Source of the DNA: Bacteroidales bacterium
GTDB taxonomy: Bacteria > Bacteroidota > Bacteroidia > Bacteroidales > WCHB1-69
Reading direction: 5' to 3'
DNA: 32,026 nt
NCBI GenBank assembly: GCA_024682995.1
Contig: JAIKYR010000162.1
Span: 1 to 32,026, forward strand
The notes beneath the pieces are model-generated. The model saw nothing but the letters and a program-made list of their open reading frames with translations, searched no databases and had not been told where the DNA came from. Below, piece after piece: positions 5,611-18,123 of the stretch. Within the stretch, counting starts at the first letter, position 1. The number at the start of each line of letters is the position of its first letter. The translations under genes were made by a program, and so were the position numbers.

Positions 5611-7155
5611 ATGTTAGTGAGAACTTACAGTTGTGCCCTGATGGGCGTTGCGGCCATTCAGATTGCGGTGGAGGTCAGCGTGGATGTCGGAATCGGTTTC
5701 CATCTGGTGGGGTTGCCCGACAGTGCGGTCAAAGAGAGTCAGCAGCGGATTGAGACGGCCTTGAAATTGTACAAATACCATATTCCCGGGCGTAAGATTG
5801 TGGTTAATATGGCTCCGGCCGATATTCGGAAGGAGGGTTCGGCCTTTGACCTGACGTTGGCGATTGCCATTTTGGCCGCCTCCGAGCAGATTAAGGGGGC
5901 GGACCGCTTGGGGGATTATTACATCATGGGCGAGTTGTCGTTAGATGGAAGCATGCAGCCGATACGGGGCGCACTGCCCATCGCCATTGAGGCGCGCAAA
6001 AAGGGCAAGAAGGCGTTGATCCTGCCGGCGCAGAACGCGCGGGAAGCCGCTATTGTGGACGGTCTGGAGATTCTCGGGGTGGAGAACATCAAGCAGGTAA
6101 TCGACTATTTTGACAAGGATGTGCCCATCATCCCGACGAAAATCGACATTGAACAGGAGTTCCGCAAGAGTCTGAATGACTACGAATATGATTTTTCAGA
6201 TGTGAAGGGGCAGGAGAACATCAAGCGTGCGTTGGAGATTGCGGCAGCCGGCGGTCATAACGTCATCCTTATCGGGCCGCCCGGTTCGGGCAAGACGATG
6301 CTGGCCAAGCGACTGCCCTCCATTCTGCCTCCTCTGACGTTGCATGAGGCATTGGAAACCACCAAGATACACTCGGTGGCGGGCAAGATGAGCCGATATG
6401 CCTCGCTGATTTGCGTGCGGCCCTTCCGTGCGCCGCATCATACCATCAGCGATGTGGCGTTGGTGGGCGGCGGCACGCATCCGCAGCCCGGCGAGATCTC
6501 GCTGGCCCACAACGGCGTGCTCTTTCTAGACGAATTGCCCGAATTCAAGCGCCAAGTGCTGGAGGTGATGCGACAGCCGCTGGAGGACCGTTTTGTGACC
6601 ATCTCAAGGTCGCAGTATTCGGTGGAGTTTCCGGCCTCCTTCATGTTCGTGGCGGCCATGAATCCCTGTCCCTGTGGCAATTACAATCATCCGACCATTG
6701 CTTGCACGTGCAAGCCCGGGGAGGTGCAGAACTATCTGGGGCGGGTGTCGGGTCCGCTGATGGATCGCATCGACCTCCACGTGGAGGTGGTGCCGGTGAG
6801 TCATGAAGAACTGGCCAGCAACAAACCGTCGGAGAAGAGTGCGGCCATCCGCAAACGCGTGGTGACGGCCCGAGACATCCAGAAAGAGCGCTTCACCAAC
6901 CAATTCAATGTTTTCTGTAACGCGCAGATGACCAGCCGGATGGTGCGGCAGTATTGTACGATTGACGAGGCGGGGCAAGCCATACTGAAGCAGGCGATGG
7001 ACCGTCTGGGCCTCTCCGCCCGCGCCTACGACCGCATCCTGAAAGTGGCTCGCACCATCGCCGACCTCGACGGCAGCCCGAACATCGAAATCGGGCACCT
7101 TAGCGAGGCCATCAATTTCCGCAGCTTGGATCGGGACAATTGGGGGAAACGATGA
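5611..7155 (+). CDS. comM: YifB/ComM family Mg-chelatase-like AAA+ ATPase
   Basis: The protein has 514 residues, full length for the family. The N-terminal ChlI-like domain contains GIGFHLVGLPDSAVKES (residues 28-44) and the conserved VNMAPADIRKEGSAFDL (65-81). The AAA+ core has Walker A GPPGSGKT (222-229), Walker B VLFLDE (303-308) and the PFRAPHHT loop (271-278). The C-terminal Mg-chelatase domain has [18 protein letters not shown]. Proteobacterial ComM is a hexameric helicase that drives branch migration during natural transformation; the role in Bacteroidota is not established. The last 156 bp (7000-7155) are repeated at 14066-14221, downstream of the TIR/RyR operon, so the present 3' end may be original or may have been swapped in during insertion of the island. 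Confidence 0.95.
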   Translation: MLVRTYSCALMGVAAIQIAVEVSVDVGIGFHLVGLPDSAVKESQQRIETALKLYKYHIPGRKIVVNMAPADIRKEGSAFDLTLAIAILAASEQIKGADRLGDYYIMGELSLDGSMQPIRGALPIAIEARKKGKKALILPAQNAREAAIVDGLEILGVENIKQVIDYFDKDVPIIPTKIDIEQEFRKSLNDYEYDFSDVKGQENIKRALEIAAAGGHNVILIGPPGSGKTMLAKRLPSILPPLTLHEALETTKIHSVAGKMSRYASLICVRPFRAPHHTISDVALVGGGTHPQPGEISLAHNGVLFLDELPEFKRQVLEVMRQPLEDRFVTISRSQYSVEFPASFMFVAAMNPCPCGNYNHPTIACTCKPGEVQNYLGRVSGPLMDRIDLHVEVVPVSHEELASNKPSEKSAAIRKRVVTARDIQKERFTNQFNVFCNAQMTSRMVRQYCTIDEAGQAILKQAMDRLGLSARAYDRILKVARTIADLDGSPNIEIGHLSEAINFRSLDRDNWGKR

Positions 7156-7175
7156 TGTTCCGCCCCTGAAGGGGC
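7000..7175 (+). repeat. Direct repeat, left copy: comM 3' end plus first REP hairpin
   Basis: This segment aligns without gaps to 14066-14241 at a constant offset of 7066 bp. The blocks 7019-7076 and 7102-7159 are perfect (58 bp each). They are separated by a 25-bp stretch with 11 mismatches. Homology crosses the stop codon and reaches into the first GCCCC-TGAA-GGGGC hairpin. The two copies bracket the TIR/RyR operon like the left and right ends of an integrated element. Confidence 0.9.
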
Positions 7176-7550
7176 TTTTGGAACCGTCTGGAAATGCCGT
7201 TTCTACCGGGCTTGTGTCCCTGTCGGGACATGTTTCACCCCTGAAGGGGCGTTTGGGGATTCATCGGGAATGCCGTTTCTACCGGGCTTGTGTCCCTATC
7301 GGGACATGTTTCACCGCTGAAGGAGCTTGTGGAACCGACAGAGAGCGTCCTTTCTACGGGGCCGTCGTCCTTGTGGGGCATTTTCCGTGCTGCATCGGAT
7401 ACGGAGAGCTGCGACAGTCACGAATGGCCCCGACAGGGGCCAAAGCTCGGTAGAATGTGCGCCACCGTTCTCCCCTCGTCCCGCAGGGACGGAAGCTCGG
7501 TAGAATGAGGGACATCACGATTCCCCCGTAAATGTCCCTTTAGGGACGAA
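7156..7550. repeat. REP-like palindrome array
   Basis: This gene-free stretch is packed with GC hairpins: GCCCC-TGAA-GGGGC (7162-7175), TGTCCC-TGTC-GGGACA (7215-7230), GGCCCC-GACA-GGGGCC (7426-7441), CGTCCC-GCA-GGGACG (7477-7491) and GTCCC-TTTA-GGGAC (7534-7547). Two clear tandem copies of a 76-bp unit (ATGCCGTTTCTACCGGGCTT starting near 7194 and again near 7270) are followed by a degraded third near 7345. The motif AAGCTCGGTAGAATG follows two of the hairpins. The array sits directly upstream of the RAYT transposase pseudogene, as expected for REP elements beside the transposase that mobilises them. Open frames across it are by-products of the GC-rich repeats. Confidence 0.85.
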
Positions 7551-7598
7551 ACAAAAGACGAAACAAAAATAATTATCAAACAAAAAAATCAAACCATT

Positions 7599-8070
7599 AT
7601 GAAATCAATGAGAAATAGTACCTACACGCAAATCCATATCCAAATAGTTTTTGCCGTTCAAAACAGAGGCTCCTTGATTTTCGACACATGGAGAGAACGT
7701 CTGTACAAATACATGATTGCCATAATCCAAAACAAACGTCATGGTTCTGGCCTTAGGCGGGACAGCAGACCATGTTCACATTCTAATTGGAATGCGCCCA
7801 TCGCAATCATTGTCCGATTTGATGCAGTATGTCAAAGGGTGTTCATCGAAATGGATAAACGAGAACAGGCTTGCCAGCGGCTGGTTCTCCTGGCAGGAAG
7901 GGTACGGAGCCTTTTCATATTCGAAAGATGAAATCCCTGCCGTCATTCGATACATCGAAAACCAGGCGGAGCATCACAAACAGCAAGACATGGTGGATGA
8001 ATACAAACAGATGTTGAAGGAAAATGAGGTTGAATACGATGAACAAAAAATCTTCAAACAGATAGAATGA
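7599..8070 (+). pseudogene. REP-associated tyrosine transposase (RAYT, IS200-like), frameshifted
   Basis: The 5' part encodes YTQIHIQIVFAVQNRGSLI and reads to QNKRH. The 3' part, one frame over from 7741, encodes LALGGTADHVHILIGMRPSQSLSDLMQ and runs to FKQIE at 8067. Together they make a normal-length Y1/HUH transposase of about 150 residues. The HUH motif is HVH, and the candidate nucleophile Tyr is in IRYIENQAEHH. The frames join at 7740-7743 (CATG). Restoring two bases there (CAT-ATG) gives the family spacing between the QN-x-x-H segment and DHxH, so a 2-bp deletion is the simplest cause. The enzyme is probably dead. It lies directly downstream of the REP array, its presumed substrate. Confidence 0.85.
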
Positions 8071-8201
8071 TTTGTTGAAAAGTGAAGATTATTATCCATA
8101 AATTCCCCATTCAACACATATTCCCTTTGTTTCAATCAATTTCATGAATTGTTCTCGATTTTGTCTTGGTGACGGCATCGGAATACCAATAGGTCTCTTT
8201 T

Positions 8202-10253
8202 TTAATTATCCTGCATTTTGCCTTGGGTGATCTCCACACACTCTTTCAGGAATTGTGTGTCGGGATGATCTTCTCCTAAGGCTGCCTTCAGAATAGCGAA
8301 CGCTTTCTGGAAACACTCCAGAGCCTGGGCATACTGGCCTTGTCGATAGCAGATATTCCCGATATTGTTATAGCTGACAGCCACATCGGGATGATTCTCG
8401 CCATAGACGGACTGGTAGATAGCCAATGCCTTCCGATAGTATTCCAAAGCTTGGGCATAATCCCCTTGAACCTTGTACAATCCTCCCATGTTATTGTAGT
8501 TGGTCGCCACCTGCGGGTGATTGTCGCCATAGACCGACCGGATGATAGACAATGCTTTATGGAAAGACTCCAGAGCTTGGGCATAATCTTTCTGGAGACA
8601 GCACACCAACCCGATATTGTTGTAACCTACTGCCACATCGGGATGTTTCTCGCCATAGACTGATTTGCTGATCGTGAGAGATTTCAAATAATATTCCTTT
8701 GCCTGGTCGTATTCTTTCTGGGAATAGTACACGACGCCCATATTGTTGTAGCTGGTCGCCACGTCGGGGTGGTTCTCCCCATAGACGGACCTCCGGATAT
8801 CCAATGATCTCTGATAACAATCCATCGCCTGGACATGATCTCCCTGGGCATAGAAGGTAAGTCCGATGTTGTTATAGCCAGTGGCCACGTCAGGGTGGCT
8901 CTCCCCATAGATCGACTTGTTGATTGTCAGCGCTTTCCGGAAGTGCTCCATCGCCTGGGCATATTCGCCCTGACTATAGTACACCCCACCGATATTGTTG
9001 TAGCTGGTCGCCACGTCGGGGTGTTGCTCGCCATAGAAGTTCTTTCTGATCTCCAAGGATTTCTGATAGCACTCCATAGCTTGTGCAAATTCCCCTTGTT
9101 TTTTATACACATAGCCGATATTGTTGTAGAAGGTGGCTATGTCGGGATGGTTCTCTCCATAGTTCTCCTTCAGGATATCCATGGATTCCTGGTAGTGCTC
9201 CAAGGCCCGGGGATATTCGCCTTGGCCCATATAGATGCTTCCGATGTCGTTATAGCAGGTGGCCACGGAAGGATGGCGAGGACCGTTTTGGGCTGTTGCC
9301 TGACGCAGGGCGCGCTCGTAATAGTGGGTAGCCTTATGGTAGTCAGCCAGATAGTCATCGACGAAGTTGCCGGCTGCCAGCTGCCACTCCACCTTCGTCG
9401 TGTCGAGCTCCGCCCTCAATTCGAGGTAGTAGGCGGCGGAGTCGTTCTGGAACTGGGCGGAGAACCGCTCAAAATAGCCATAGCAGCGGCGGGCGATCTC
9501 CTCATTGTCGGCGGCGAACACGGCCTCGGCACGACGAAGCTGTTTTTTGCGCTCCTGCAGGGCTTGTCCTTTCTGCTGCTGTTCGAGCACCGCCTGACGC
9601 ACATCACCACGGGAAGCCAGGAGCGAGTCGGCCTTCAGCAGATCGCCATTCTCGATGCAGAACGACACCTGACGGTAGAACTCGTCCAGCAGGTCATAGT
9701 CGAGTTCGGCATAGCGTCTGGCCATGTCGGAGATGAGCTTCTCGTTGTTCTCCTGCTCGGCATAGAGTTGCTGCAGGGCCTGGCGATACTCCTCCTCCGT
9801 CAACTTGTTATGCTCTTTGAGGGAGTCTATCTCCAGTTCCCGCTGTTGCAGCTTCGCCTGCAGCTGACGACGTAGTTTCCGCTCGGCGGCCAGCTGGTCG
9901 TCGGCCTGTTTGTCGGGCGTCTCCATCGTGATCACCATCGGGTTGGAGGAGCAGGCATACTGTTTCTTCAGCACGTCGGGGTCGGAGAGCACATAGCCCT
10001 GCTTCCGCACGTCGCTCAGGAAGAATTTCTTGTCGGGCACCGTCAGGGTGAAATTGCCATTGGCATCGCCTACGGTGGAATGGCCGCCCATCAACTGGAT
10101 GGCCGCACCGGCGATGCGCTGGCCCGGGATCAGCTGCCCTTTGCTGTCCAGCCGTCCTTTGGTCTTCACATAGCCCTTCTGGGCGGTCTGCGCGGAGACC
10201 ATCGTGACAACAGCTATGCTTACTATGACGGTGAGTATAAATCGTTTCATCAT
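8202..10253 (-). CDS. Secreted tetratricopeptide-repeat protein of the TIR/RyR operon
   Basis: From the ATG at 10253 the protein has 683 residues (the open frame continues only to a TTG at 10265). Residues 1-21 are a signal peptide ending VSA before QTAQKG, so it is exported. A carboxypeptidase-regulatory-like beta domain follows (about residues 25-110; AGAAIQLMGGHSTVGDANGNFTL). Next comes a charged coiled coil (about 115-180) and then eight 42-residue kinesin-light-chain-type TPR units of the pattern GENHPDVATSYNNIG...YAQALEYYRKAL, ending with a partial ninth. It is the last gene of a four-gene minus-strand operon, 27 nt after the TIR stop. TPR arrays bind proteins, so a sensing or scaffolding role in the periplasm is inferred. 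I see no enzymatic motif. Confidence 0.88.
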   Translation of the reverse strand: MMKRFILTVIVSIAVVTMVSAQTAQKGYVKTKGRLDSKGQLIPGQRIAGAAIQLMGGHSTVGDANGNFTLTVPDKKFFLSDVRKQGYVLSDPDVLKKQYACSSNPMVITMETPDKQADDQLAAERKLRRQLQAKLQQRELEIDSLKEHNKLTEEEYRQALQQLYAEQENNEKLISDMARRYAELDYDLLDEFYRQVSFCIENGDLLKADSLLASRGDVRQAVLEQQQKGQALQERKKQLRRAEAVFAADNEEIARRCYGYFERFSAQFQNDSAAYYLELRAELDTTKVEWQLAAGNFVDDYLADYHKATHYYERALRQATAQNGPRHPSVATCYNDIGSIYMGQGEYPRALEHYQESMDILKENYGENHPDIATFYNNIGYVYKKQGEFAQAMECYQKSLEIRKNFYGEQHPDVATSYNNIGGVYYSQGEYAQAMEHFRKALTINKSIYGESHPDVATGYNNIGLTFYAQGDHVQAMDCYQRSLDIRRSVYGENHPDVATSYNNMGVVYYSQKEYDQAKEYYLKSLTISKSVYGEKHPDVAVGYNNIGLVCCLQKDYAQALESFHKALSIIRSVYGDNHPQVATNYNNMGGLYKVQGDYAQALEYYRKALAIYQSVYGENHPDVAVSYNNIGNICYRQGQYAQALECFQKAFAILKAALGEDHPDTQFLKECVEITQGKMQDN
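8277..9284 (-). repeat. Eight tandem 126-bp TPR-coding repeats
   Basis: The stretch codes for eight consecutive 42-residue units, each opening with G-x-x-HP and containing YN(N/D)(I/M)G. The DNA repeats are imperfect but similar enough to allow unit gain or loss by recombination, so repeat number may differ between strains. Confidence 0.85.
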
Positions 10254-10280
10254 AATCGAAACCAATGATATGAAGATAAA

Positions 10281-11411
10281 TTATTGTTTGAAAATACAAT
10301 AGTTGTCGCCGCAGGGCAGATAGAGACTGTCTTCATGCAGCGGGATAGATGCCATGATGGGATAGATCTTCTTTTGTGCCGCCAGCGGGATGGTCAGCGT
10401 GACAAGCCCTGTCTCGTCCGACCAGACAGTCTGGCCGTCTATCAAGACCTCCACGCCCGACAGGTATTGTTCCGTCTGTGGGTCGTAAAGGCGGAAACGG
10501 ATGTCGCCATAGACTGCCGGGTCGCGGGCCACATCCACCGTCACTGTCTCGGTCAGCACTACCGTCGTGTCGGTGGTCAGAAAGTCGAGGCAGGAGACGG
10601 TCACATGGACCGGCTTGTTCAGATACTTGTGGGGGATGTTACGGAAGACCACTCTCCCGTCCATTGTCCGGAGGGTGTCCGTCTCGGTCTTGTTGGGGAG
10701 GGCCAGCGTCACCACAGCATCCTGCATCTCCGGCAAGTTGGCATTGTATTCCGAGACCTCGTTCACCCGCAGGGCCACGTCCACGGGCAGGCCTTGGCGC
10801 CATACGCCGACCAGTGCTGCAAGCACGACGAGTATTCCAAGCACCCAGGCGATGGCCTTACGGATGAGCTGTCGGCGGTGGCGTTTCCATATCGCGTCGA
10901 ACTCCACATCCAACAACTTGGAGACAAGCTGCACGTAGGCCCGCTCACGGTTCAGATAGGAGATACGGTGTACATCCTCATGTATATTGGCGGCGAGGAT
11001 CTCCGGCAGTCCCAGCGTCTCCACCATGGGGTTGAAGCATTCTGTGTCGGGGTCGCCGCTGTGAGGTTCTCCCTCCACGATGAAGAAGTGGATATCCCGG
11101 GTCCTGCCCAGCTGGTGGAAGAAGGCTATCTCGCGGCCCACCCACTCCGACTTGGCCGAATGGGGCGAGCAGATCACCACTAGATGGCGGGAAGCCTTCA
11201 GCCGTTCCTGCAACTCCTGCGAGAGACCACCCGGCTGGATGTCCGTAGGCGCGAAGAAGACCGGCTGGATGGGCGTCCGCTTCCAGCCGCGCTCGCTGCA
11301 CAAGGTGGCCGGCATACGATAGTGCTCCAGCTTCTTCTGCAGGCGCATCCCCCACTTCAAGTCATGGGAGTTGTAGCTGATAAAGGCAAAATATTTATAC
11401 TGCTGCTCCAT
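10281..11411 (-). CDS. Membrane-anchored TIR-domain protein
   Basis: From the ATG at 11411 the protein has 376 residues; 11426 is a TTG and is not preferred. The TIR domain (about residues 1-165) begins YKYFAFISYNSHD. It carries the helix ICSPHSAKSEWVGREIAFF, where Glu94 of WVGRE lies at the position of the catalytic glutamate of TIR NADases such as SARM1 (WVHKE). A basic stretch (KRHRRQLIRK) precedes one transmembrane helix (about 186-204, AWVLGILVVLAALVGVW), which places the TIR domain in the cytoplasm. The remaining ~170 residues are beta-rich modules (DAVVTLALPNKTETDTL, GDIRFRLYDPQTEQYLSGVE) on the outer face. It is third in the operon, 19 nt after the RyR stop. NAD-hydrolysing or cyclising activity is inferred from the family. 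Confidence 0.9.
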   Translation of the reverse strand: MEQQYKYFAFISYNSHDLKWGMRLQKKLEHYRMPATLCSERGWKRTPIQPVFFAPTDIQPGGLSQELQERLKASRHLVVICSPHSAKSEWVGREIAFFHQLGRTRDIHFFIVEGEPHSGDPDTECFNPMVETLGLPEILAANIHEDVHRISYLNRERAYVQLVSKLLDVEFDAIWKRHRRQLIRKAIAWVLGILVVLAALVGVWRQGLPVDVALRVNEVSEYNANLPEMQDAVVTLALPNKTETDTLRTMDGRVVFRNIPHKYLNKPVHVTVSCLDFLTTDTTVVLTETVTVDVARDPAVYGDIRFRLYDPQTEQYLSGVEVLIDGQTVWSDETGLVTLTIPLAAQKKIYPIMASIPLHEDSLYLPCGDNYCIFKQ

Positions 11412-11430
11412 AAAAAAGGGCTCCAAGTGA

Positions 11431-11730
11431 TTATTTGTGTTTAGGGACTATCTCAAAGCCGCTGACCATCAAGAACTTCAACGTCTCGGTACTGGTCTCT
11501 CGGTCATAGGCTTTCTCCTCCTCTGACAGCTGGTCGTAAGGGACGAGGCACGGATGCTTCTTGTCGGCATCATTGCGCTCCGGACCATAGGTCCAGCCTT
11601 GGGCGACACGCGCGGCCGCCCACACCTCGTGGACATGCTCGGCCATCTGCTCGGCGACAGCCTGCAACCCTTCGGGAAGCTCCACATGGGAGGTGTCAAC
11701 AGTAATCGGAATATCTGGGTTTTGATTCAT
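11431..11730 (-). CDS. Stand-alone RyR-domain protein
   Basis: This small protein (99 residues) is almost wholly one RyR (ryanodine-receptor repeat) domain. The signature is AEHVHEVWAAARVAQGWTYG, followed by ADKKHPCLVPYDQLSEEEKAYDRET and a final helix TLKFLMVSGF. The HEVW-x-x-x-R-x-x-x-GW-x-YG and HP-x-L-x-PY-x-x-L...YDR positions are the hallmarks of the family. It has no signal peptide, so it is cytoplasmic. It is second in the operon, 13 nt after the channel stop. A second, more divergent RyR domain forms the C-terminus of that channel. A role in binding a small ligand or tuning the channel is inference; prokaryotic RyR domains have no settled function that I know of. Confidence 0.92.
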   Translation of the reverse strand: MNQNPDIPITVDTSHVELPEGLQAVAEQMAEHVHEVWAAARVAQGWTYGPERNDADKKHPCLVPYDQLSEEEKAYDRETSTETLKFLMVSGFEIVPKHK

Positions 11731-11743
11731 CGTGGTTAGGGTT

Positions 11744-13885
11744 TTAGAGTGTCGTCATGCGTAAGAGCCACGGGATATATTGCGAGATCTCATAGTCCAG
11801 CTGTTGCACGTTTTGTGGCAGTTGTTCAAACGGACGAATATCATAATGGACATACAACTCCTTGTTGTTTTGCAGTTCTCGGTCGTAAGATGGGTTCTCG
11901 TACTTGTCTTCCGCCTTCTTGGGCTTGCGAAACCCCATCAGCAGCTTCTCGGTATTCCAACGGTTGTGCTCCACACGGGCAAGCATCTCGACCTCCTCGG
12001 CGCTGAGGTCTTGAAGGTCTTGAGACTGGTCATCGGGCTCCAGTCCCCGCATGGTCCTCAGCGTGGCCAGTTTGCAGGAGATGCTGTATGCGCAATAGAG
12101 ATTCGACCACTTCTTGGCCACGGTCAGAGCGCGCCAATAGCGGTCGGCCTCGGCCCACAGCGCGGTGGCGGGCACGGCGTCCAGATCTGCAAGACTGGTA
12201 AAATGGGAGGTGCTGTAGTCGGCGGTCTCATAGAGATAGTTCAACAGTTTGGCTTGCTTCAGTGGGGTCTCATCAGACCAATAGGCCATGTCGTTCATGC
12301 CGAAAGGATAGATGTTGGCATAGCGATGTTGGCGCCTCTCCTGCACCAGCGTTCCGTCCTCCACCTTGCCATAAGCATACACCTTGTCGTCAGCCGCCTG
12401 CAGGTTGGTGACGAAGTCGTCGGCACGATCCTGACGGATGAAGACCGGCACCGCATTGTCGTACACCTCGTCGGGCATGTTCATCCCCGTCATGAAATTA
12501 TGGCGCTGGTCGGATCTTGTGACGAAGATGGAGAGGTATTCGTGATCCTTATCCTGCGCCCAACTCTTGATCAGATGCTGGATTCCATCAGCATAGACAT
12601 CCCCTTTGACAAATTCAAACTCGGTGTCCAGGAAGTCCGTGTCCGGCAGCTCCCGGGAGACACGCTGATCGATTTTCACAGGGAGATACGCCGCATCATC
12701 CTTCGACATATCGCAATAGAAGAAGGGCTGGACTTCAAAATAATGCCGGTTGCGGGTGACGAACAAGCGCATCTCCTCGTCGGCATTCTTCTCGATGAAT
12801 GTGATGCGTGTCCGCAGGGCTTTATCGCGGATGACATTAGGGAAATGGAGCAGATGGGCCGCTTCTATAGCCAAAGAAATGGAGAAGTTTGTGATTCCCA
12901 CAAAGACCAAATGCACCCGTTTCGTGTCCTCATAGCATATGCCCTTGCCATAGACAGAGGGATACGGGATCTCTACAGCCACATTGTTCTTCTCCTTATA
13001 GGAACGGCGCACAAAGACTTGGGTGGCCCAGTCATCGTAAAAGTTATACGGCACAAATTCAATCCCCAAGTCGCCGATCTGCGAGAATATCTCGGTAGTC
13101 TTGAAAGCCGAGTAGGTGTCAAAGTCTTCGAAGACGCAGACAACCCGCTTCGGAATTTGGTTGAAGTGGTTTTCTGTCAGATACATGTAGATGTTATCCA
13201 CGCACTCCACGTTGATGGCGTCATGTTCCGGTCTGGTTCGGTTGCCGACGATATAGATAGCCTCTGATGATTCCAGATGGATATCCTGGTAGGCATCTTT
13301 CACCATCCGGTGACCGTAGGCGATGAATATCTGGTCCATCTTGTCTCGGGCCACGGAGCGGAGGAGTTTCTCATGCACCTGTTTGGCATCCAGAGCCGAC
13401 AGCAGCACCACATCTGCTTTAGGCGTCTTGGCAAATATCTCGGTGATGATAGACGGAACCATGTCATCATAGCCCATGATGATGTAGTGGCCGCTCTTGA
13501 CATAGTGCAGCAAGCCGTTGCGGTGCGCATCCACGCGGTTGTCGATGGCGTTGGTGATAAGACCGATCATGATGCCGTTGAAGATGATAAGACCGAAGAG
13601 GTAGGAGATCCCGCTGGCCACCAGCAGCCATCCATGGGTCCCCTCGCCAAAATAGACATAGCTATACGCGCTGGTATCTATCAACAGAAACAACGGCAAC
13701 GACCACACCGGGATGCCTTTGTATGCACAATAGGCTCTCCAGTCAGAACCGGAGAAGGAGAGTAGCAGGTAGGATATCAGCAACAGGACGACAAACAAGA
13801 CCAGCAGGATGAGGATCTGCCGACTGAAGCTGCGCGACATCGCCCTGTCGAGGAATAGTTTGACATTATTTCTCTTTTTAGACAT
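11744..13885 (-). CDS. CASTOR/POLLUX-like ion channel with RCK-type domains and C-terminal RyR domain
   Basis: The protein has 713 residues. A hydrophobic helix (about 24-45, ILILLVLFVVLLLISYLLL), a re-entrant pore-like segment (about 62-80, WSLPLFLLIDTSAYSYVYFG) and a second helix (about 85-112) make a two-TM channel unit. No TVGYG-type potassium filter is present. LLHYVKSGHYIIMGYDDMVPSII then opens a Rossmann-type RCK/TrkA-N-like domain, as in the plant nuclear channels CASTOR/POLLUX (SYM8). A second such half starts near VHLVFVGITNFSISLA. The C-terminal ~80 residues are a divergent RyR domain (LARVEHNRWNTEKLLMGF...HYDIRPFEQLPQNVQQLDYE). It is the first gene of the operon. Ligand gating through the RCK or RyR parts is inferred; ion selectivity is unknown. 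Confidence 0.85.
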   Translation of the reverse strand: MSKKRNNVKLFLDRAMSRSFSRQILILLVLFVVLLLISYLLLSFSGSDWRAYCAYKGIPVWSLPLFLLIDTSAYSYVYFGEGTHGWLLVASGISYLFGLIIFNGIMIGLITNAIDNRVDAHRNGLLHYVKSGHYIIMGYDDMVPSIITEIFAKTPKADVVLLSALDAKQVHEKLLRSVARDKMDQIFIAYGHRMVKDAYQDIHLESSEAIYIVGNRTRPEHDAINVECVDNIYMYLTENHFNQIPKRVVCVFEDFDTYSAFKTTEIFSQIGDLGIEFVPYNFYDDWATQVFVRRSYKEKNNVAVEIPYPSVYGKGICYEDTKRVHLVFVGITNFSISLAIEAAHLLHFPNVIRDKALRTRITFIEKNADEEMRLFVTRNRHYFEVQPFFYCDMSKDDAAYLPVKIDQRVSRELPDTDFLDTEFEFVKGDVYADGIQHLIKSWAQDKDHEYLSIFVTRSDQRHNFMTGMNMPDEVYDNAVPVFIRQDRADDFVTNLQAADDKVYAYGKVEDGTLVQERRQHRYANIYPFGMNDMAYWSDETPLKQAKLLNYLYETADYSTSHFTSLADLDAVPATALWAEADRYWRALTVAKKWSNLYCAYSISCKLATLRTMRGLEPDDQSQDLQDLSAEEVEMLARVEHNRWNTEKLLMGFRKPKKAEDKYENPSYDRELQNNKELYVHYDIRPFEQLPQNVQQLDYEISQYIPWLLRMTTL

Positions 13886-14026: not shown

Positions 14027-14221
14027 ATGAAGCGCATCCTTTTCCTCCTGTCCACGGACAATATGGACAGTTTGGGATTGTCGTCCCGCGCCTACGACCG
14101 CATCCTGAAAGTGGCTCGCACCATCGCCGACCTCGACGGCAGTCTCAGAATCGAGACGGGACATCTCAGCGAGGCCATCAATTTCCGCAGCTTGGATCGG
14201 GACAATTGGGGGAAACGATGA
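14027..14221 (+). pseudogene. Truncated second copy of the comM 3' end (right direct repeat)
   Basis: Codons from 14063 ([20 protein letters not shown]) to the stop at 14219-14221 reproduce the last 52 residues of ComM, ending [13 protein letters not shown]. The 5' side is a foreign 12-codon lead-in ([12 protein letters not shown]) with its own ATG at 14027, so a 64-residue chimeric open frame exists. It lacks the ATPase core and cannot be a working ComM. DNA matches 7000-7159 gaplessly, with two perfect 58-bp blocks. Several differences between the copies are synonymous (GAA/GAG, GGG/GGA, CAC/CAT, CTT/CTC), which suggests the copies came from two once-functional comM alleles. Confidence 0.88.
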
Positions 14222-14329
14222 TGTTTCGCCCCTTCAGGGACAAGGGAAAAACATTTGTCAAGCAAATCCAATTATGATGAAATTCTGATAGGAATTCGTT
14301 CATCTCAATCATGGTCTGATTTGTTGAAA
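14222..14329 (+). pseudogene. REP fragment and RAYT transposase remnant after the second comM end
   Basis: Directly after the truncated comM, CGCCCCTTCAGGGAC (14227-14241) is a decayed version of the hairpin that follows intact comM. At 14282-14329 the frame ATT-CTG-ATA-GGA reads ILIGIRSSQSWSDLLK, which matches ILIGMRPSQSLSDLMQ of the RAYT at 7599-8070. The DNA over about 45 bases agrees at roughly four positions in five. The rest of the transposase is missing. The order comM end, REP, RAYT is therefore present on both sides of the TIR/RyR operon. Confidence 0.65.
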
Positions 14330-15238: not shown

Positions 15239-16009
15239 TTAAAAGGCCAGGAACCCGACTCCGACCTTGAGGCCGAACCAGTAGGCGTTCAATATCCGAT
15301 TGTGTACAAAACTGTTGACGGAGGTGGTACTCGCATCGTGACGGGAAAAGTCGTCAAAAAAGCCTTTTATCGCTTTGTATCCGCCAAAGGTGCTGCCGAA
15401 GGAAATTCCGAACGAAAGTCGTAACCGATTGAAAAAGAGGTAGTCGTATCCGAATTCTGCTTTTGCGCCGAATAGCATGCTGTTGCCCTCTTTGAGGTCG
15501 GGATAATAGGATGCCATCAGTTGCGGCGGCTCCTCATTGTTTAGATAATGGTAGAAAAAACCGTCAAAAATGAATTTTGCGTAAAAGCCCAGCGGGGCCT
15601 TTGTGTCACCCAAATACTGCTTGTAAAACACGTTGAACCCATGTGCTACGACCTGTCCAGTAAAGGAGTAGTCCTCATAATAGTAAGAGTATGAGTTTGG
15701 GATTTCCTGGTACAGAGTGCCTTTATAGGGCGAGTTGTAATAGTTGTAGCCGGCACCCACGCTACCTTTGTTCCAAATAATACACTCTATATTAGGGGAT
15801 AGAATATAGTTCAGGCCAAAATAGCGGCGATAATGCTCGCTGGTGAAGTGCTCATTTAGGGTGTGTGACAGCGGATTTGGGTTTTTCCAGGACGGCGATA
15901 GAGAGCCCTCCGCATTGAAGATGACGTGCATGCCCATGTAACCGGTGTTCTGTCCCAGACAGTATCCTGATAGCAGGATGGCGATGATGAAAAGATATAT
16001 TTTTCTCAT
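15239..16009 (-). CDS. Predicted outer-membrane beta-barrel protein
   Basis: The protein has 256 residues. Residues 1-19 are a signal peptide (IYLFIIAILLSGYCLG before QNTGY). The mature part alternates aromatic and polar residues in short strands (IIWNKGSVGAGYNYYN, GFYAKFIFDGFFYHYL, FGAKAEFGYDYLFFNRLRLSFGISFGSTFGGY) and ends in Phe (KVGVGFLAF). This is the pattern of small outer-membrane barrels, which carry a C-terminal aromatic residue recognised by the BAM machinery. No specific ligand can be proposed. Its ATG lies 2 nt after the stop of the M48 peptidase gene, so the two are co-transcribed and probably translationally coupled. Confidence 0.78.
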   Translation of the reverse strand: MRKIYLFIIAILLSGYCLGQNTGYMGMHVIFNAEGSLSPSWKNPNPLSHTLNEHFTSEHYRRYFGLNYILSPNIECIIWNKGSVGAGYNYYNSPYKGTLYQEIPNSYSYYYEDYSFTGQVVAHGFNVFYKQYLGDTKAPLGFYAKFIFDGFFYHYLNNEEPPQLMASYYPDLKEGNSMLFGAKAEFGYDYLFFNRLRLSFGISFGSTFGGYKAIKGFFDDFSRHDASTTSVNSFVHNRILNAYWFGLKVGVGFLAF

Positions 16010-16011
16010 TG

Positions 16012-18123
16012 TTATTTTCCTTTAACAAAATGATATAACTGGTCGTAAATAAATGCGTTCGTGTAAGCCCTGTTGATGCTGCTGGTCTGGCTGTCACGGG
16101 CGGTCACATCGTTTTTTCCGTTCCCGAAATCGGTGATGATAAAGTACATCTCGGTGGTGTTGCGCGGCAGGACGAAAGTGGTCAGGGTGACGGGTAGGAC
16201 GTAGGGGCAGAGCAGGGTCAGGAAGAGACTCTTGCTCTTCTCAAGTCCGAAGAAACGCCCCGAGGTGGTGTTGTTGCCCACAAAGCATATCTTGCTGGTG
16301 CCGGTCAGCTCGTAAGCGGCAGCCATATTTTGGGCGGTGTGGTGCACCATCTCGATGCCGCCGCCCTTCGTATAGTCGCGCAACCACTGCTGCAACTGCA
16401 CGTAACCGTTGTACTCGTCCGTGGAGAAGTCGCACACCTGTTTGGGTGCATAATGCAATGTCTGGAGTTTGAGACGTCTGGCACTGGTGGTGGTGGCGCG
16501 CAGAAGCTGCTTCTTGCCTCGTTCCACCTGCTTGGAGGAGGCACTTTTGTTGTAAAACGAATATTCCGGACTGGCAATCAGTAACGTTTTGACATCGGCG
16601 GGTGTCTTTTGGGTCACGAGGTCCAGCACCTTTTCATCTTCGGCTATGCGTATTACGTTATTCATCGCACTCACAAAGTCGGAATCCTGATGGATATCCA
16701 CCAGCATGTAGTTGGCTGTCTTGAACTTGGCGGTGGGTATCACTTTGTTGGGCTGGTTTTGGCGGCGTATGCGCGCGTATTTGCCGATGGTGCTGTCTGG
16801 TGTCGCCGCCTCTTCCACGACGATGGAGTCAGGGTTGGTGCCCATGGGATAGTCGGAGAAATCGGTGTATTTCATCTTGTTTTTGACGAATACATCCCGC
16901 AGGAGGTCGTTGGCCATTTCCGCAATCTGTGTGTTTTCAGGGAAACGTTGTCGTGCGGCCCATGCATACCGTAGCGCTAATAAAGAGGCCTCCACACGGT
17001 TCAGTTTTGACAGTATGTAGCTTACCTGTTGCATTTCACCTTCCACTTTCTTGTAAGACAGTATGACGTCTGACACTTGTCCGTTGTTGCGGTGTTTGGA
17101 ATAGCCGTACCAGGCTTCCGCCAAGGCCTTTTGGAGGAAAGCGTTGTCAGGAAAGCTTTGCTGCAGAACGTGGATGTTGTAGATGGCCTGGTCGTATTGA
17201 TGGTCGGTGAGCAGAATGTTGATGCACTCTAACCGGGCCAGATTGCGTATCTGTTGGAATTTTTCTTCCGGTTGCAGATAGACAGAGCGTCCTGATTTTG
17301 CCAGTCCGGCGATGATGCTTTGCGCTGCCGTTCGGCGTTTCTCGATGTTGGGATGGGTGAACAGCGTGTCAATCATGTCGGCACGGTTCTGGATAGGCGC
17401 GATGTTTGTAAGATAATAATTTTCAGGAAAATGATAAAAATCCGTTTCTGTGTATTTCTTGGTGAATGGAACTTCGTCAAAGGGTAAATCCGCATACTGC
17501 AGCACATCGAAAATCCCGTTGATGACATCGTAGCTGTATTTGGATGACTGGAAATAACGCTCCAAGGCGATGCGGTCGGCGGCCAGCTCCTGTTCGCGGG
17601 AACGGTTCTGCGACTTGACGTAGTAGCTGATCATGTCCCGTTCCTTGAGCTTGTCCTTGTACTCGTTGATTTCCGTGATGTGGTTCTCCGCCACATGCGC
17701 GATCTCATGGGCGAGGATGAAGGCCAGCTCGCTCTCGTTGGAAACTTGGGCAATCAAACCCATATTCACGAGGATGAGTCCGTTGGTGGTGGAACTGGCG
17801 TTGACAATGGGGGTCTTGAGGATGTATATGTGGATTTTGGAGCGCAGAACCGGATTGTCCTTCAGCAGGTTGTCGGCTATCGCGTCCAAATAATCGTTTA
17901 GAGGTGTGCCATAAAGTAGGCGACCATCCATGATGAGTTTCTTGAGGTAAACGGAATAGTCGGAGGGAGCCTTGTCGTTTTGGAGTGCCTTTTTGAAATC
18001 GGCGGGCATTGGGCCTTCCGATTTAAGGGGTGCGGAATAGTCTTGGACGGTCTGCGCCTGTCCGACGAAAGCGGCCAGCTGGATTAGAATCAGCAGGAAC
18101 GGCAATATCTTTTTGGGTTTCAT
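16012..18123 (-). CDS. M48 family metalloprotease with long C-terminal extension
   Basis: The protein has 703 residues. Residues 1-23 are a signal peptide (FLLILIQLAAFVGQAQ). The peptidase domain has the zinc motif HEIAH at 139-143 within AFILAHEIAHVAENH and the third ligand Glu179 in QELAADRIA (E-x3-D), as in the M48/BepA-type proteases. Helical repeats follow (about 290-420; AIYNIHVLQQSFPDNAFLQKALAEAWYGYSKH), similar to the TPR part of BepA. A further ~280-residue region includes TLLIASPEYSFYNKSASSKQ and a late GTSKICFVGNNTTSGRFFG. BepA-like proteins degrade or assist outer-membrane proteins; the coupled outer-membrane barrel gene downstream fits such a role. The acid C-terminal part is not assigned. 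Confidence 0.88.
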   Translation of the reverse strand: MKPKKILPFLLILIQLAAFVGQAQTVQDYSAPLKSEGPMPADFKKALQNDKAPSDYSVYLKKLIMDGRLLYGTPLNDYLDAIADNLLKDNPVLRSKIHIYILKTPIVNASSTTNGLILVNMGLIAQVSNESELAFILAHEIAHVAENHITEINEYKDKLKERDMISYYVKSQNRSREQELAADRIALERYFQSSKYSYDVINGIFDVLQYADLPFDEVPFTKKYTETDFYHFPENYYLTNIAPIQNRADMIDTLFTHPNIEKRRTAAQSIIAGLAKSGRSVYLQPEEKFQQIRNLARLECINILLTDHQYDQAIYNIHVLQQSFPDNAFLQKALAEAWYGYSKHRNNGQVSDVILSYKKVEGEMQQVSYILSKLNRVEASLLALRYAWAARQRFPENTQIAEMANDLLRDVFVKNKMKYTDFSDYPMGTNPDSIVVEEAATPDSTIGKYARIRRQNQPNKVIPTAKFKTANYMLVDIHQDSDFVSAMNNVIRIAEDEKVLDLVTQKTPADVKTLLIASPEYSFYNKSASSKQVERGKKQLLRATTTSARRLKLQTLHYAPKQVCDFSTDEYNGYVQLQQWLRDYTKGGGIEMVHHTAQNMAAAYELTGTSKICFVGNNTTSGRFFGLEKSKSLFLTLLCPYVLPVTLTTFVLPRNTTEMYFIITDFGNGKNDVTARDSQTSSINRAYTNAFIYDQLYHFVKGK

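Follow-up and report, generated by a model that had tools for sequence, protein, structure and literature searches.

Thoeris systems combine a TIR protein, ThsB, with an effector, ThsA; types I, II and VI are described, with effectors of the SIR2-SLOG or macrodomain kind (PMC13232231, PMC12948488). The locus analysed here lies on a 32,026-nucleotide stretch of a Bacteroidales genome (contig JAIKYR010000162.1, positions 1 to 32,026; hereafter the window) and is a minus-strand operon of four genes that encode a channel, a free RyR-domain protein, a TIR protein and a TPR protein. It resembles Thoeris in that a TIR domain with a putative catalytic glutamate, which falls in Pfam TIR_2 and ThsB_TIR, stands beside a candidate effector gene whose domain may be able to bind ADP-ribose-type signals. 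It differs in that this candidate effector is an RCK channel with a RyR domain, and in the addition of a free RyR protein, a predicted membrane anchor on the TIR protein and a predicted exported TPR partner. Neither a SIR2-SLOG module nor a macrodomain was found in the operon proteins with Pfam, PADLOC and NCBIfam. On balance we favour a reading of the operon as a mobile alarm circuit akin to Thoeris. Its parts are the following:

11744..13885, minus strand: channel gene of the tandem-RCK type, 713 residues, with transmembrane segments at residues 16-48 and 87-107 and a RyR domain at the C-terminus
11753..11998, minus strand: RyR domain of the channel C-terminus, residues ~630-711, with H640, W643, H680 and D697
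11431..11730, minus strand: free RyR-domain protein, 99 residues, with H34, W37, H59 and D76
10281..11411, minus strand: TIR membrane protein, 376 residues from its ATG, with Glu94, one transmembrane segment and two predicted Ig/CnaB-like domains
10788..10871, minus strand: transmembrane segment of the TIR protein, residues 181-208, with a basic stretch before it
8202..10253, minus strand: TPR_12 repeat protein, 683 residues from its ATG, with a signal-peptide-like N-terminal segment and seven 126-nucleotide repeats

The original prediction, made from the letters of the window, had described one minus-strand operon with gaps of 13, 19 and 27 nucleotides, and the open reading frame list together with the sequence confirms the coordinates as well as these gaps along channel-RyR-TIR-TPR. 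A TTG codon lies 15 nucleotides upstream of the ATG of the TIR gene.

Are the four genes linked beyond this window? A search for their conserved co-occurrence had been proposed, and linkage was indeed found, with a core that recurs across Bacteroidota. In a sample of 104 genomes of the family, with counts pooled over related genomes, the RyR protein and the TIR protein are each encoded in 23 genomes and the channel in 19. A TIR_2 match lies within 2 kb at 15 of 27 RyR loci and within 13 kb at 20 of them, and within 13 kb at 17 of 24 channel loci; seen from the other side, of the 54 TIR_2 matches over the cut-off, 15 have a RyR locus no more than 2 kb away, where 0.07 would be expected, and 19 have a RyR or channel no more than 5 kb away, where the expectation is 0.34. 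A free RyR is present within 3 kb at 19 of the 24 channel loci. Generic TrkA_N genes served as control, and none of 30 had a TIR_2 match within 13 kb, 28 of the 30 being in genomes that do have such a match over the cut-off. The complete order channel-RyR-TIR-TPR was found at ten further loci, one of them with two TPR genes, and also at L029 and L031 as far as their contigs extend. RyR-only loci (L041, L047, L048) and channel loci without a free RyR nearby (L065, L067, L081) exist as well. Both TIR_2 matches in the assembly of the window itself are beside a channel of the operon's family. The second of these TIR proteins carries an FGE-sulfatase domain and adjoins a channel fragment at the end of contig C133 (L235). 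Elsewhere, at L050 (G008:C126, 7173-7995), decayed pieces of a RyR, a channel C-terminus and a TIR lie side by side.

Among the best 80 of 163 Bacteroidales relatives of the channel, some at loci shortened by contig ends, a RyR is found within 3 kb at 49 and a TIR within 8 kb at 44, both partners at 31 and either at 62. The order of the genes varies: TIR-TPR-channel-RyR at L044 and, with several TPR genes, at L040; channel-TPR-TIR at L123; channel-TIR-RyR at L132; channel-RyR, a further gene, then TIR-TPR-TPR at L134 and L142; channel-TPR, an interval, then TIR-RyR at L135; and RyR-channel-TIR at L180, L182 and L186. At L051-L053 a zf-HC2/C39-like-RyR protein precedes TIR and TPR and a channel is absent, the zf-HC2 and C39 matches being below the Pfam cut-offs. 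Altogether the partners stay together through at least nine orders and fusions and at channel identities as low as ~25%. A sample of 395 genomes from across the phylum contained four with a full-length fused channel-RyR gene, and all four genes adjoin a TIR frame (L230, L231, L232 and L239, the frame of L239 having only 123 residues); for a fifth, divergent fused gene the TIR lies ~3.6 kb away (L238). Because this two-gene form exists, the TIR and the channel-RyR are taken as the core and the free RyR and the TPR protein as additions.

What could the RyR domains contribute? Direct binding of cyclic ADP-ribose (cADPR) by RyR domains is a long-standing open question. A preprint of May 2026 points to this question for future study and reports that RyDEP, a phage RyR-domain enzyme, binds and cleaves the Thoeris signals 2'cADPR and 3'cADPR (2'/3'cADPR) with H75, W78, H100 and D117 as ligand or catalytic residues (PMC13232231). 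Of eight phage homologues tested, six bind 2'/3'cADPR and cleavage was found for none, two sponge-type homologues having nanomolar affinity; RyDEP is a homodimer, and its domain is related by homology to R12 of the ryanodine receptors of animals (PMC13232231). Human R12 is a pseudosymmetric domain that binds adenine nucleotides together with dantrolene, and Trp881 of RyR3 is required for the nucleotide-dependent binding of dantrolene (PMC12627627).

The free RyR protein of the window matches PF02026 at 1.2e-35, with 122 bits against a curated cut-off of 27.4, in agreement with its earlier description. By sequence it also matches the RyR2 repeats (8.8e-69, four stretches) and 3NRT (3.6e-31), which we take to be a ~100-residue 'putative ryanodine receptor' of B. 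thetaiotaomicron. This B. thetaiotaomicron RyR-domain protein is mentioned in the preprint (PMC13232231). In animal RyR1-3 the R12 repeats belong to a ryanodine receptor pore, whereas in the window the RyR domain is fused to, or beside, an RCK channel. The sequence of RyDEP (NC_053511.1) was confirmed to carry H75, W78, H100 and D117, which align gap-free with H34, W37, H59 and D76 of the window protein (43% identity over 46 residues); domain and spacing of the four ligand or catalytic residues are thus the same, the difference being that the window protein is encoded by a bacterial gene in an operon with a putative signal-making TIR and not by a phage (PMC13232231). W37 probably corresponds to Trp881 of RyR3. 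The histidine, tryptophan, histidine and aspartate are retained in 73, 73, 65 and 69 of 74 distinct free or fused bacterial RyR domains and in 93, 94, 93 and 80 of 95 distinct channel RyR domains. The idea that a TIR-made signal is read by RyR domains is better founded on this account, since the residues kept here are those by which phage RyR proteins bind or cleave 2'/3'cADPR, and the linkage adds to it; a link of the window's own domains to these molecules would rest on PMC13232231 and on residue conservation. The original prediction is borne out in part, and one piece of it has to be changed: the free RyR may be something other than a further sensor, its phage relatives having been found in tests to destroy or bind away the signal (PMC13232231).

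RyR domains also occur in other settings. They end proteins of 310-330 residues at L162 (10685-11629), L169 (10676-11647), L173 (3927-4859) and L051 (8957-9898), of which the L051 protein has weak zf-HC2 and C39-peptidase matches and the other three look similar by eye; at L162 and L169 a PrsW protease gene adjoins. Such proteins suggest RyR-controlled proteolysis or anti-sigma regulation. In the g76 genomes, proteins of ~900 residues were seen, among them that of L229 (5217-7898) with a tandem RyR pair, reminiscent of the animal R12 layout, and weak AAA/STAND matches; no TIR was seen in the three stretches around the tandem-RyR loci L229, L233 and L234, two of them shorter than 8 kb, and these proteins were set aside. 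At L179 (7289-7951), L181 (7046-7687) and L187 (7074-7943), in Bacteroides and relatives, a RyR is followed by two apparent transmembrane segments (by eye) in a gene that adjoins the channel gene.

The second RyR domain of the operon is less easily recognised, as Pfam gives only a sub-threshold Slo-like_RCK match (0.022) for the window channel and no match to PF02026. The signal at channel C-termini is weak with a profile built solely from free RyR proteins (E<1e-3 for 4 of 169, 0.42 for the window channel), and for this reason a distant channel, L231, was used as a bridge. L231 has PF02026 (2.7e-15) and TrkA_N (2.7e-12) within one open reading frame and in pairwise BLASTP matches the free RyR of the window at 7e-15 and the C-terminus of the window channel at 2e-7, with the H..W..H..D residues aligned. 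An iterated RyR profile likewise reaches channel C-termini (best 4e-19). By way of these sequence links the C-terminus of the window channel is a RyR domain, and the assertion that the channel ends in one holds even though Pfam misses it.

As to the channel itself, hydropathy predicts two transmembrane segments, and an AlphaFold2 model (pLDDT 81.7, pTM 0.77, 13 sequences in the alignment) has Foldseek matches to human and Aplysia Slo1, to the gating rings of LjCASTOR and MtDMI1 and to bacterial GsuK, structures with bound NAD and ADP among them, at E ~1e-7 to 1e-5 with TM-scores of 0.23-0.47 only. The predicted fold places two RCK domains behind a transmembrane pore, as in the tandem-RCK class. 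The label CASTOR/POLLUX-like therefore stands at the level of the predicted fold, shared with CASTOR/POLLUX/DMI1, Slo1 and GsuK, and does not extend to a CASTOR/POLLUX family in Pfam; the window channel differs from all of these by its sequence, which is only ~10% identical to theirs, by the absence of the filter motif TVGYG from its 713 residues and by its C-terminal RyR domain. The TVGYG potassium filter is not universal among channels of the CASTOR/POLLUX/Slo/GsuK class.

The matches to NAD- and ADP-bound GsuK bear on another reading, in which the TIR protein depletes NAD+ and the channel and RyR domains sense falling NAD+ or rising ADP-ribose or ADP, not a cyclic signal. Binding of adenine nucleotides to R12 together with dantrolene would be in line with this (PMC12627627), whereas the binding of 2'/3'cADPR by RyDEP-type domains, at nanomolar affinity for two sponge-type homologues, speaks for a cyclic signal (PMC13232231), and we consider NAD+ depletion an improbable explanation. 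Alternatively, the free RyR could be a gating subunit that pairs with the RyR domain of the channel to form a two-lobed pocket like the one built by two tandem repeats in animal R12 or by the RyDEP dimer. The frequent presence of a free RyR near channel loci, the homodimeric state of RyDEP (PMC13232231) and the pseudosymmetry of human R12 (PMC12627627) would fit such pairing. At two-gene loci, however, RyR is found only inside the channel frame, the L231 channel possesses a second, degenerate RyR-like stretch of its own (a second BLASTP segment against the window free RyR, E 0.004), and the catalytic histidine-aspartate pair is kept in nearly all free RyR copies, so that a gating subunit appears doubtful, if worth keeping in mind.

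The TIR protein matches TIR_2 at 1.1e-9 and ThsB_TIR at 1.4e-6 in Pfam. Its Glu94, in the motif SEWVGREI, is presumably the catalytic residue, by analogy with the TIR family; it is invariant in 12 aligned homologues, and 79 of 84 distinct TIR domains have the glutamate, the others showing a gap (4) or Asp (1). Hydropathy predicts one transmembrane segment at 181-208, bearing out the description as a membrane TIR protein that keeps the Glu of WVGRE, and a transmembrane segment is predicted after the TIR domain in 39 of 74 distinct TIR frames of at least 250 residues. Since the segment follows a basic stretch, the TIR domain would be cytoplasmic and the Ig domains would lie outside. In the model of the protein (pLDDT 82.4, pTM 0.50, TIR half ~53-84), the N-terminal half matches the TIR domains of SARM1, L7, SPARTA and RPS4 at E ~1e-3, and the best fold matches, in the C-terminal half, are pilin Ig/CnaB domains. 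Neighbouring TIR proteins at related loci carry FGE, WD40, LRR or Fib_succ domains, which we read as interchangeable sensors. The TPR protein matches TPR_12 at 1.2e-155 and has one N-terminal transmembrane-type segment by hydropathy; the signal-peptide-like character of this segment agrees with export, and the word secreted, used for this protein originally, may mean periplasmic only.

How might these proteins act together? In the reading that we favour, the membrane TIR protein would receive a cue at the envelope, probably by way of its Ig-like domains outside the cytoplasm and the exported TPR protein, upon which its cytosolic TIR domain would convert NAD+ to a signal of the ADP-ribose type, with 2'cADPR or 3'cADPR as the likeliest products. 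Binding of this signal to the C-terminal RyR domain of the channel would open the pore, and the resulting ion leak may stop the cell or the infecting phage. The free RyR would cleave or sequester the signal and thereby set a threshold or act as off-switch.

The surroundings of the operon contain the following features:

5611..7155, plus strand: intact gene from the open reading frame list, bordering the island, which from its sequence we take to be comM/YifB-like
6997..7173, plus strand: left copy of a 177-nucleotide direct repeat, coinciding with the 3' end of the comM-like gene
14063..14239, plus strand: right copy of this repeat, 88% identical, upstream of the operon
7599..8070, plus strand: IS200/Y1-type transposase, of which 7741-8070 matches Y1_Tnp and the start is apparently in another frame (7599-7931, by eye)

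The operon and the IS200-type transposase lie between the two repeat copies. The channel DNA of the operon shares 97.6-98.5% identity with L029, L030, L032, L033 and L034, while the window comM is only 75.6-77.0% identical to that of G009, G021 and G034, three of the genomes of those loci (G017 and G029 were left out of the comM comparison). Because channel DNA at ~98% identity thus goes with comM genes at 76-77%, the operon is, by the measure of this sequence comparison, horizontally mobile. The two genomes closest in comM within this comparison (92.4% and 90.8%) do not have the operon. About 165 bp directly upstream of the operon are common to the window and L031; otherwise the window flanks found no match, and the comM repeat was not found, at the 16 other operon loci compared. 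Plasmid copies were not found in 72,556 records with the window channel (E 1e-6) or the L231 channel (E 1e-8).

The 3' end of the comM/YifB-like gene is a recurrent insertion point in the genus: remnants of it, ~45-55 codons long, lie downstream of the intact gene in G012, G016, G022, G039, G040 and others, with mixed cargo between, and in G033 the comM-like gene is followed after ~80 bp by a homologue of the 266-residue gene that lies beyond the repeat in the window. A dedicated defence hotspot at this site was considered and rejected, as two of ten scanned cargo proteins match PADLOC candidates (PDC-S27, PDC-S01) and the other eight have no PADLOC match at E up to 0.001. Further along the window, at 15239-18123, an M48-family protease gene is followed by a gene of 256 residues without Pfam match, and no relation to the operon was seen. 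Promoter-like sites number 12, against 6.8 (standard deviation 2.7) expected, and terminator-like sites are at chance level; no weight was put on either.

Mobility of the island and the mixed cargo of the comM site could mean that the genes merely travel in the same islands and have no joint function. The persistence of the partners through the many arrangements described above, at channel identities as low as these, and the tight intergenic gaps make this very improbable. More substance attaches to an envelope- or osmotic-stress signalling operon without antiphage role, which would account for the predicted Ig-like and TPR parts outside the cytoplasm and for the zf-HC2/C39-like RyR fusion (sub-cut-off matches) that takes the place of the channel beside TIR and TPR at L051, similar proteins next to PrsW protease genes (L162, L169) suggesting gene regulation. 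Horizontal mobility, patchy presence, RyR homologues borne by phages and TIR neighbours with variable recognition domains argue against such a role, and we think it unlikely.

Several points weigh against the alarm circuit that we favour. The linkage counts take no account of shared ancestry; at 7 of 27 RyR loci in the family the 13 kb on either side contain no TIR_2 match, and around 18 of the 80 channel loci both partners are missing (RyR counted up to 3 kb away, TIR up to 8 kb). The comM-site cargo of relatives is not mainly defence. PADLOC has no model for RyR or the channel at E up to 0.1, its ThsB models match the TIR protein weakly (1.2e-4), and in the NCBIfam scan RyR, TIR and channel had no match over the cut-off. 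The model of the TIR protein is weak in the TIR half, which also matches, at E ~1e-3, the TIR of chicken TLR15, a Toll-like receptor TIR that is not known as an NADase. Finally, the H59 position is substituted in 9 of the 74 bacterial domains that are free or fused, and at the level of sequence the four RyR residues cannot separate an enzyme from a sponge or binder, because RyR proteins of a Ruegeria phage (all four residues, with two residues inserted) and a Pectobacterium phage (three of four, with Arg at the W position) keep them, these being the genera of two tested sponges, with identity to the sponge proteins unconfirmed.

Phages themselves carry relatives of the RyR protein. RyR matches were found in 257 of 50,697 phage records; two records named 'Bacteriophage sp.', MT836850, which encodes a channel besides RyR, and MT837259, are unverified and were given no weight as phages. 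An alignment scan detected RyR at 53 viral-contig loci, and a single-sequence scan of viral contigs gave no RyR match. Nine of the viral-contig matches cover most of the RyR protein (L312-L320, 48-60% identity), two pairs of them with identical gene maps, and neither TIR nor channel was found in the stretches around their RyR genes. Neighbours that were scanned include an NAD-dependent DNA ligase (L314), an RNA ligase (L317) and an adenylosuccinate-synthetase-like gene (L314, L316, L320). At L314-L316, L319 and L320 (~6000-9000) the RyR gene is followed by three genes of ~205, 290 and 400 residues, the last of which is the adenylosuccinate-synthetase-like one in the three contigs scanned. L312 and L318, whose neighbours are of transposase type, could belong to bacterial DNA or to a prophage border, and in a FastTree phylogeny of 114 domains it is these two viral-contig RyR that stand nearest to the bacterial free RyR, so that the argument for a recent exchange between phages and the operon is a weak one. 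A more specific version of the alarm circuit is put forward tentatively, as a possibility short of an even chance: an immune pathway in which the TIR would make 2'/3'cADPR, the RyR domain of the channel would sense it and a RyR glycosidase of the operon would clear it as a built-in off-switch, phages having adopted this RyR domain for anti-defence.

Among the papers listed in searches for RyR with TIR, Thoeris or channels, which did not cover the text of a 2025 preprint surveying TIR systems, only PMC13232231 combines bacterial or phage RyR with TIR signalling; its available part mentions bacterial RyR sequences and no TIR-RyR operon, and none is described in the accessible portions of PMC13142454, PMC13174449 and PMC12948488. 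The operon of the window brings together a predicted enzyme of the cADPR type and two RyR domains, the second belonging to a channel. As a compact and genetically simple set, with a two-gene counterpart in distant relatives, it makes the link from TIR signal to RyR to channel directly testable with purified proteins. If this link is true, an ion-channel effector class would be added to TIR immunity, and direct action of cADPR on RyR domains would have a precedent in bacteria. The free RyR protein further suggests that bacteria may themselves encode the kind of degrader or sponge that phages use.

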